Positions 3,653-6,054 of a stretch of 6,613 bases of DNA are shown one piece after another; within the stretch, counting starts at the first letter, position 1; each line of letters starts with the position of its first letter. The translations under genes were made by a program, and so were the position numbers. This DNA comes from Prevotellaceae bacterium (lineage in GTDB: Bacteria; Bacteroidota; Bacteroidia; Bacteroidales; UBA932), in the NCBI GenBank assembly GCA_031259645.1, contig JAIRLC010000103.1, forward strand, positions 1 through 6,613, written 5' to 3'. The notes under the pieces are model-generated. The model was not told the origin of the DNA, did no database searches, and saw only the letters and a list, made by a program, of their open reading frames with translations.

Positions 3653-3946
3653 ATGGAAGAACGGGTTAATGAATTGTTGAAACGTTTAAGGGATAAGCAG
3701 TTACAGCTTATCGCCTATTACGAAAAAACACAGCGTGAGTATGTTGAATTATTGGCTGAAAACCAGAGAAATAAAGATGAAATAACACGCCAATATGAGC
3801 GGATAAAAGAATTGGAAGAAAAGAATAAAAAGTTGCAGTTAGCCGAGGCATTTAAAGGATCAGGTGCCGGCACTAATGATGCAAAATTAAAAATAGGAAG
3901 AATTGTGAGGGAGATTGATAAATGTATTGCTCTATTAAACAGATAA
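3653..3946 (+). CDS. Small coiled-coil protein preceding ZapA (ZapB-like candidate)
   Basis: This 97-residue, strongly charged protein has three visible parts. Residues about 1-66 form one long helix with heptad-type spacing and abundant Glu, Lys, Arg and Leu (VNELLKRLRDKQLQL, then IKELEEKNKKLQLAEA). A flexible hinge GSGAGTND follows at 69-76. A short terminal helix, KLKIGRIVREIDKCIALLNR (78-97), is the part most like a conserved docking motif. There is no signal peptide or membrane segment. The gene starts the operon just after a strong promoter and ends 6 nt before zapA, which suggests joint expression and action at the division ring. ZapB of Enterobacteria is also a short cytoplasmic coiled coil that binds ZapA, but I see no sequence proof of homology. 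The functional label is inference from context and shape; the ORF being a real gene is well supported. Confidence 0.8.
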   Translation: MEERVNELLKRLRDKQLQLIAYYEKTQREYVELLAENQRNKDEITRQYERIKELEEKNKKLQLAEAFKGSGAGTNDAKLKIGRIVREIDKCIALLNR

Positions 3947-3952
3947 AATTGA

Positions 3953-4243
3953 ATGGGAGAAGAAACACTTTCCATTAAAATTAATGTAGCCGATCGTTAT
4001 TATCCGTTTAAAATAGCGGCGTCTGGAGAGGAAAGCCTTAGAGCAGCGGCGCGGCGTATTAACGAAGTGGTGGCCCAATATCGTCAGCGTTATTCCGACC
4101 GCGACATGTACGACGCCCTTGCCATGGCAGCCTTGCACTTTGTTTTAAAACTTATTGGGTGTGAGGCGGTTCAAGGACGGGTAGTAAATGAGGTGGCGGT
4201 GCTTGATGAAGAGTTGGAAGAGTATTTACAAGGTATTGAATGA
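3953..4243 (+). CDS. zapA: Cell division protein ZapA
   Basis: ZapA binds FtsZ and cross-links its filaments at midcell. The 96-residue product has the family pattern: a beta-hairpin opening (LSIKINVADRYYPFKI, residues 6-21), then EESLRAAARRINEVVAQYRQRY (26-47), the first helix, with the conserved E-LR-AA--IN core. DMYDALAMAALHFVLKL (51-67) follows, and a C-terminal acidic helix (about 75-94) probably forms the tetramer coiled coil. Length is usual for the family. The start ATG at 3953 lies 6 nt after the preceding stop, so the pair is almost certainly co-transcribed from the promoter at 3600-3629. A candidate 6S RNA gene begins about 30 nt downstream, the same order as zapA-ssrS in Enterobacteria. 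Confidence 0.92.
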   Translation: MGEETLSIKINVADRYYPFKIAASGEESLRAAARRINEVVAQYRQRYSDRDMYDALAMAALHFVLKLIGCEAVQGRVVNEVAVLDEELEEYLQGIE

Positions 4244-4272
4244 AGTAACGTATAGTTCCTATTACATATTGT

Positions 4273-4474
4273 GTCTGCATTGTTACGTGTTTCTTTGCGA
4301 AACTCAACACTATTATTATTAAAGGAGTTTATCTCGGTTGCTAAGAACAGGCCTGGTTATCCTTCGGGAGATTTCGACTTGTCGAGACGTTGGACGTTCG
4401 AGGTTAATATCCGGAAGCTCCGCCTTGATTTTCAGGGTTTTCGACAAACAAGCGTAATGATGCAGACTTTTTTT
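4273..4474 (+). ncRNA. ssrS: Probable 6S RNA (RNA polymerase-binding regulatory RNA)
   Basis: The gap between zapA and rny folds by eye into a single long rod. The first helix pairs 4273-4288 with 4452-4467 (16 consecutive pairs, three of them G-U, starting GTCTGCAT / ATGCAGAC). A small internal loop follows. The second helix pairs 4294-4305 with 4435-4448, with single-base bulges at A4444 and T4438. Then comes a central bubble of 18 nt (4306-4323) opposite 13 nt (4422-4434), and a helix of 4324-4330 with 4415-4421 (GGAGTTT / AAGCTCC). The apical part holds a UUCG-capped hairpin (CCTTCGGG 4361-4368) and a TCGA-CTTG-TCGA hairpin (4374-4385). Seven Ts end it. About 200 nt, a closing stem, a central bubble imitating an open promoter, an irregular apical stem and a place right after zapA are the hallmarks of 6S RNA, which sequesters housekeeping holoenzyme in stationary phase. 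The 5' end is estimated from the stem. No good consensus promoter lies just upstream, so it may be processed from a zapA transcript. Confidence 0.8.
4452..4474 (+). terminator. Intrinsic terminator formed by the closing stem of the 6S RNA
   Basis: The 3' strand of the 16-bp closing helix (4452-4467) is followed directly by TTTTTTT (4468-4474) and then ATTT. The stem is formed with 4273-4288, about 165 nt upstream, so this is a long-range rather than a compact hairpin. It would end the small RNA and probably most transcripts coming from the zapA operon, separating them from rny. Confidence 0.6.
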
Positions 4475-4518: not shown

Positions 4519-6054
4519 ATGGAATTACCAATTATATTAGCTATAATAGCCATCATCGTTGGCGGGGGGGTGTCATTTTTTGCAGTAAATGCTTTGTTGT
4601 CGAAGAAACGTGATAAAATCATTAAAGAGGCGCAAACAGAGGCGGAAAATATCAAGAAGGAGAAGATACTGCAGGCCAAAGAGCGGTTTTTACAGTTGAA
4701 AACGGAACATGAAAGTGTGATTAATGAGCGGAATAATAAATTGTCACAGGCGGAAAACAGGTTGAAGCAGAAGGAGTCGGTGTTGGGACAACAATTATCT
4801 GAAGCGCAACGGAAAATAAAAGAAAACGACGCCATCAAAGAAAGTTTGTCGGTACAGATGGAAGTGGTGGAGAAACGTATTGAAGAGTATGAGCGGTTCC
4901 GCCGTCAGCAGATTGAGAAATTGGAAACTATTGCTGGCCTTTCGGCGGCAGAAGCAAAGAACAACCTGGTGGAATCATTGAAAGCCGAGGCGAAAACGCA
5001 GGCCATGTCGTATGTCAATGAGGTGATGGATGAGGCGCGGCTGAATGCCACGAAAGAGGCGAAGCGTATTGTGATCCTCTCGTTGCAGCGGGTGGCGCAG
5101 GAAGCCGCCATTGAAAATGCCGTTACGGTTTTCCATATTGATAATGATGAAGTGAAAGGCCGCATCATCGGTCGCGAAGGCCGCAACATTCGTGCTTTGG
5201 AAGCCGCTACAGGCGTGGAAATCGTGGTGGATGATACGCCGGAAGCGATTGTGATTTCCGGCTTCGACCCCGTACGCCGCGAAGTGGCGCGGTTGGCGCT
5301 ACATCAATTGATTACGGACGGACGTATCCATCCGGCGCGTATTGAAGAAGTGGTGGCCAAACTCCAGAAACAGGTTGATGAAGAGGTGGTGGAAGTGGGA
5401 AAACGTACCGCTATTGATTTGGGTATTCACGGCTTGCATCCTGAGTTGATCAAGTTGGTGGGCGCCATGAAATACCGGTCGTCGTATGGACAAAATTTGT
5501 TGCAACACTCGCGCGAAGTGGCGAACTTCTGCGCCATTATGGCTGCTGAATTGGACTTAAACCCCAAGATGGCAAAGCGTGCCGGCTTGTTGCATGATAT
5601 TGGAAAAGTGTCGCCCGACAATCCCGAACTGCCGCACGCCATTCTGGGTATGCAACTGGCCGAGAAATACAAGGAAAAGCCGGAAGTTTGCAATGCCATC
5701 GGGTCGCACCACGAAGAAGTGGACATGACGTCGTTAATAGCACCGCTGGTGCTGGTGGGCGACGCCATATCGGGCGCCCGCCCCGGCGCTCGCCGTGAAG
5801 TGGTGGAATCCTACATCAAACGTTTGAAGGGCATGGAAGATTTGGCCTTGTCGTATCCGGGCGTGATAAAAACGTATGCCATTCAGGCAGGCCGCGAATT
5901 GCGGGTAATTGTGGGTAGCGAAAAAGTGAGTGACGCCGATGCAGAAAGCCTGTCACAAGATATTGCGAAGAAAATACAGGAAGAAATGACTTATCCGGGA
6001 CAAGTGAAAGTAACGGTAATCCGTGAAACCCGGGCTGTAAGTTTTGCAAAATAA
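4519..6054 (+). CDS. rny: Ribonuclease Y (membrane-anchored endoribonuclease)
   Basis: RNase Y makes initiating cuts in mRNA decay at the inner face of the membrane. The 511-residue product shows the full domain order. A single membrane helix spans about residues 4-27 ([22 protein letters not shown]). A long charged coiled coil covers about 30-190. A KH domain (about 205-275) carries the RNA-binding GREG loop (G218-G221) in [17 protein letters not shown]. An HD phosphohydrolase domain (about 325-420) has H330 (HSREV), the H359-D360 pair (LLHDIGK), H397-H398 (HHEEVD) and D415 ([14 protein letters not shown]), the expected metal ligands. A C-terminal domain follows to about 511. Nothing is missing. 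The start ATG at 4519 has an A-rich leader with no Shine-Dalgarno, normal for the phylum, and puts the membrane helix at the very N-terminus. A run of seven Gs (4564-4570) lies in the membrane-helix codons. The gene follows the 6S RNA candidate; no clear promoter of its own was found. Its stop directly abuts the next start. Confidence 0.96.

Follow-up and report, generated by a model that had tools for sequence, protein, structure and literature searches.

Does the interval between zapA and rny in this Prevotellaceae genome hold a 6S RNA gene, and how far does the arrangement around it extend? 6S RNA regulates transcription globally, and its binding to the RNA polymerase holoenzyme, its promoter mimicry and pRNA release are established elsewhere in bacteria. 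From the window (the whole stretch of 6,613 nt that was analysed) and its relatives, we conclude with high confidence that positions 4273–4474 encode a conserved rod RNA, likely the genome's 6S RNA, predicted to imitate an open promoter and so bind the holoenzyme via its central bubble. We reach this reading because of the fold, the covariation, the single copy per genome in the relatives searched, the homology to the 6S-Flavo and Bacteroidales-1 families, and the place between zapA and rny.

Results

A rod-shaped RNA in the gap

The window encodes, on the + strand, the cell division protein ZapA (3953–4243; Pfam ZapA, 52.3 bits, cut-off 23.8) and RNase Y (rny, 4519–6054; NCBIfam TIGR03319, 626.7 bits, cut-off 454.35), leaving a gap of 275 nt between the zapA stop at 4243 and the rny start at 4519. 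The conserved array begins with a coiled-coil-like ORF of 97 aa (3653–3946, + strand) that gives no Pfam or NCBIfam match over cut-off. This ORF is kept immediately 5′ of zapA through the phylum; it is ZapB-like by position only, and is a candidate ZapB counterpart.

As a preliminary description had held, the gap is not empty: a folded RNA was confirmed at 4273–4474 (+ strand; rod plus T7 tail, both ends predicted), 29 nt from zapA. The gap RNA has a minimum free energy of −60.9 kcal/mol, compared with a mean of −47.26 (s.d. 4.02) for shuffled sequences (z = −3.39), and none of the 200 shuffles folded as low. In the comparative structure, all of it on the + strand, the closing arm pairs 4273–4302 with 4439–4467 (helices 1 and 2), so that the rod described earlier stands with an arm of about 30 nt a side instead of 33; the central bubble (5′ side, 4303–4323, ~21 nt; 3′ side, 4422–4438, 17 nt) stands likewise, at about 21 × 17 nt instead of 18 × 13. 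The further helix reported beyond the bubble is there as well: 4324–4337 pairs with 4411–4421, forming two helices inside the bubble (helices 3 and 4); the strand GAAC..CC at 4345–4353 pairs with 4392–4399 in the distal helix (helices 5 and 6); and an apical hairpin occupies 4372–4387 (helices 7 and 8). The seven T of the tail, also as described, lie at 4468–4474, and the closing arm followed by this run marks the likely transcript end. A terminator scan found none, but it allows loops of 3–8 nt only and is blind to a long-range arm.

A conserved tract, AAACTCAACA (4300–4309, + strand), comprises the last AAA of the arm and the bubble's 5′ edge. On its 3′ side, the bubble is able to fold into a small hairpin: at most 3 of 100 shuffles folded as low in 14 of 20 related sequences (three identical here), and in the other six the hairpin did no better than chance.

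Compensatory changes among relatives

A DNA search with the gap through 59 genomes, including its own, found it in 20, its own among them. The coiled-coil ORF and rny are present at all 20 loci (L001–L020), and zapA was seen in 15 by tblastn at E ≤ 1e-3; a profile later found zapA in four of the remaining five (L009, L015, L018 and L020), L019 being outside the set given to the profile.

We aligned the 20 RNAs by sequence alone (alignment A1). RNAalifold recovered 33 pairs from A1, 23 of them with changes on both sides, and the named structure of 42 pairs left 90.8% of 830 cells paired, with both-side changes at 27 of 42 pairs (115 cells); none of 500 shuffles matched A1 on any of five measures. 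Sliding the structure by 1–3 columns reduced pairing to 34.2–48.8%, a control that favours the structure, which was partly drawn from A1; the double changes are therefore the stronger point. They fall at 17 of the 23 pairs of the closing arm (helices 1 and 2). Helices 5 and 6 are 100% paired, with G-C, A-U and U-A alternatives, and helices 3 and 4 are 77.5% and 80.0% paired, the alignment being one base off in some rows.

A larger alignment, A3, holds 100 sequences from 100 of 131 sources (the window plus 130 loci), with duplicates and truncated, weak and further distant sequences left out. Here 89.8% of 3975 cells are paired and both-side changes occur at 41 of 42 pairs, in an alignment that was fitted to the structure; the slid controls gave 32.3–52.8%. 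Compensatory changes, which the preliminary description had named as a check on its claim, are thus many, affecting the closing arm as well as the helices adjoining the bubble, and the RNA has what marks the broad 6S class: a rod with a closing arm, a large central bubble and a distal stem, with covariation. The tract 4300–4309, among the longest conserved runs, is invariant at 9 of 10 positions in the 20 sequences and still strongly conserved in the 100.

The same pattern bears on whether the gap encodes a small protein instead. A frame of 69 codons with a GTG start at 4271 is indeed open in the window, as had been pointed out together with its want of protein character. However, substitutions follow the base pairs, the ORF gives no Pfam or NCBIfam match at the limits used, and frameshifts cut it to 16–23 codons in all four relatives of the same genus. 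We therefore reject the 69-codon ORF as a protein gene, a reading whose probability we regard as negligible.

Curated families fall below their cut-offs in the window

Rfam models of 6S RNA do match the window, although both matches fall below their cut-offs: 6S-Flavo (RF01685) at 4302–4441, with 32.7 bits against a cut-off of 85 (E = 0.057), and RF00013 at 4274–4467, with 21.2 bits against 46.4 (E = 0.4). The longer of the two, that of RF00013, stops at the end of the closing arm. Bacteroidales-1 (RF01693) matched neither the window at E ≤ 5 nor the window's own genome at E ≤ 0.001, and RF01685 had no match in a whole-genome search of that one genome at E ≤ 0.001. No Rfam 6S family in the window thus reaches its own cut-off (85 bits for RF01685, 46.4 for RF00013 and 60 for RF01693), and the RNA is not filed under RF01685 as curated. 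Elsewhere in the window, at 2527–2662, between genes for a GH36 glycosidase and a serine acetyltransferase, short TTAGTGATTAGTGG-type repeats with inverted copies about 80 nt apart attract chance matches of plant microRNA models.

The relatives gave a similar picture. Among L001–L020, 6S-Flavo matched at E ≤ 1 in four loci, all sub-threshold; in a set of eight loci, six with a match to our own model, no 6S family appeared at E ≤ 1; and of 20 Bacteroidales rny loci, 19 with such a match, none reached any Rfam cut-off. Bacteroidales 6S copies can therefore go unannotated, in keeping with the earlier remark that 6S-like RNAs of this phylum are diverged and often missed. Because the Rfam families were sub-threshold or silent across loci, a model had to be built here.

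Model R1 joins the RNA to curated 6S RNAs

This covariance model, R1 (203 positions, 42 pairs, built from A1), scores 196.6 bits at 4269–4473 of the window, whose own sequence is part of the model. Of 40 related genomes, 39 have exactly one match each. Fifteen of the 40 had contributed a sequence to the model, and of the 25 that had not, 24 were matched, the miss being a 61%-complete genome (G044). Among rny loci from named records, R1 matched with at least 37 bits in 76 of 79 (three cut by the locus start); L100 also has a match, which brings the count to 77 of 80, L021 and L023 among the 77 being contigs already in R1. The misses are L036, L097, where the zapA–rny gap is roughly 80–90 nt, and L056, where rny begins about 100 nt from the contig end. 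In Thermophagus xiamenensis (L036) the gap is roughly 130–140 nt, too short for the RNA, and holds no credible match; the 6S gene there is elsewhere in the genome or was missed. Under stricter filters R1 found 43 of 296 genomes across the phylum and 15 of 40 in the class, the window's own included in both counts, and it is therefore not a phylum-wide detector.

R1 hits coincide with curated 6S RNAs. Of 29 distant phylum loci with R1 hits, 20 were scanned with Rfam at its cut-offs, and an above-cut-off RF01685 match lies within the R1 match in 11 and is absent in nine. In G036 the only R1 hit (C7:9806–9986) falls where RF01693 scores 136.3 bits against a cut-off of 60, and the overlap recurs in G038, there with a sub-threshold 37.5 bits; in the remaining 38 of the 40 relatives RF01693 gave nothing at E ≤ 0.001. 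The Rfam entry for RF01693 reads '6S-Bacteroidales RNA suggested'. A third, more remote family (f42) supplies L132 and L133, in which the R1 hits are spanned nearly to the base by RF00013 matches of 27.6 and 27.3 bits, both short of the cut-off. That the RNA is homologous to curated 6S RNAs is thus found indirectly, via R1 (RF01685 in 11 of 20 loci, RF01693 in G036), and from its overlaps with RF01685, RF01693 and RF00013 it follows that the window RNA stands between separate Rfam families. The original assignment to 6S RNA gains support from this tie to above-cut-off 6S families as well as from the covariation.

Architecture alone cannot tell 6S RNA from a look-alike that acts otherwise, such as Ms1, a binder of core polymerase that the accessible part of PMC9130861 describes as structurally related to 6S. 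Direct homology to 6S-Flavo speaks against such an RNA here, as does the detection, reported in the accessible text of PMC7366714, of 6S RNA with pRNAs in Bacteroides; we consider an Ms1-like function very improbable.

The zapA–6S–rny order in the phylum

The coiled-coil gene, zapA, the 6S gene and rny lie in this order on one strand in 37 of the 39 relatives with an R1 hit. In G042 the upstream part is cut by the contig end and rny is present; in G036 none of the three protein genes appears in the fetched flanks. The homologue in G036 (L174) lies at about 1907–2087 on the − strand. Among the 77 RNAs from named records, zapA lies no more than 150 nt away and rny follows in 72; of the five exceptions, four lie at most 34 nt from the locus start, and for the fifth, L096, the nearest zapA ORF was found 891 nt away. 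Of 42 phylum hits outside the window's own genome, 38 were fetched and four left unfetched, and zapA and rny flank the RNA in 33 of the 38. The five without these flanks (L111, L116, L120, L128 and L138; flanks of ~1.5–2 kb) all belong to family f34. Since zapA and rny are absent from the fetched flanks, either the 6S homologue or the zapA and rny genes have moved in G036 and f34.

So constant a place could also be expected of a cis-acting element, the rny leader or the zapA mRNA's 3′ end, that controls these genes and not polymerase at large; the RNA sits between the two genes in those 37 of 39 relatives, and in some its start coincides with the zapA stop or falls within it. Yet in the five f34 hits and G036 the fetched flanks of the homologue contain neither gene, the RNA is homologous to 6S-Flavo and Bacteroidales-1, and the T run ahead of rny fits a separate transcript. 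We give a cis-acting role only a slight probability, and retain the reading as 6S RNA.

The adjacency of zapA and 6S had been proposed as synteny kept across phyla. It is real within the phylum (the 37 of 39 relatives and 33 of 38 fetched hits above) and in E. coli K-12, where zapA is followed 41 nt on by ssrS and then by fau; the Bacteroidota zapA profile matches E. coli ZapA at 4.8e-12. The accessible text of PMC7641849 describes arrays in beta- and gamma-proteobacteria, putative operons, with ssrS directly 3′ of zapA and zapB before zapA. The cross-phylum case rests on E. coli K-12 and that part of PMC7641849. In the literature searched, we recognised no description of a zapA–6S–rny order in Bacteroidota; Wehner 2014, by title the most relevant, may have one.

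Discussion

On the pattern of known 6S biology, this RNA may work as follows. It would build up as growth slows and keep hold of the housekeeping holoenzyme; once outgrowth begins, polymerase would copy the tract 4300–4309, read toward the 5′ arm, into a short pRNA, which would then open the rod and free the enzyme. By analogy with E. coli, AAACTCAACA probably serves as the template for pRNA, and with this conserved stretch of the bubble comes a concrete pRNA prediction. The 6S mechanism in other bacteria is also treated in the accessible part of PMC7641849. Within the phylum, 6S RNA together with two classes of pRNA has been detected in B. thetaiotaomicron (PMC7366714, accessible text) and 6S RNA in F. 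psychrophilum (PMC9723704, accessible text).

In L154 (G018), L155 (G019), L018 and L019 the first bases of the R1 match reach or take in the zapA stop, the distance falling to −13 nt, which suggests that in these relatives the RNA is processed from the zapA transcript or has a promoter within that gene. Given this position in some relatives, the 5′ end of the RNA may arise by processing of a zapA transcript. No common promoter signature stands out upstream of the RNA in the two scans made: TAnnTTTG, the Bacteroides −7 motif, was present in 5 of the 99 stretches upstream, compared with 3.2 on average after shuffling, and a sigma-70 scan gave one site, on the − strand only.

We conclude that the window RNA is very likely a genuine 6S RNA lying below current Rfam cut-offs. 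Built from 20 sequences, R1 recovers copies that Rfam misses and links two of its families; it also reveals that distant families of the phylum retain the order coiled-coil gene, zapA, 6S, rny. Because E. coli matches this order with zapA–ssrS, one can test directly whether a zapA–6S array is ancestral. We see an even chance that 6S-Flavo, Bacteroidales-1 and the Bacteroidales RNAs missed by Rfam are one family whose place after zapA is an ancestral linkage predating the split of Bacteroidota and Pseudomonadota; if so, a cell-division gene has been tied to a global brake on transcription for most of bacterial history. The deep zapA–6S–rny linkage is the part worth following.

Comparison with known 6S RNAs

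Among the curated families, 6S-Flavo (RF01685) is the best Rfam match to the window and has the conserved tract ACUCAACA in common with it; zapA and rny also flank the 6S-Flavo loci that coincide with R1 hits. RF01685, however, models 108 positions and has no closing arm outside 4302–4441, whereas the window RNA has the arm. RF00013 aligns along the entire rod of the window, yet at 21.2 bits remains below its cut-off, and Bacteroidales-1 (RF01693) in G036 has, unlike the window, neither zapA nor rny in the fetched flanks. E. coli 6S RNA (ssrS) is, as in the window, a rod with a closing arm and a central bubble, and in both cases zapA precedes it on the same strand, at 41 nt in E. coli and 29 nt in the window; the downstream gene is fau in E. 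coli, whereas it is rny in the window.
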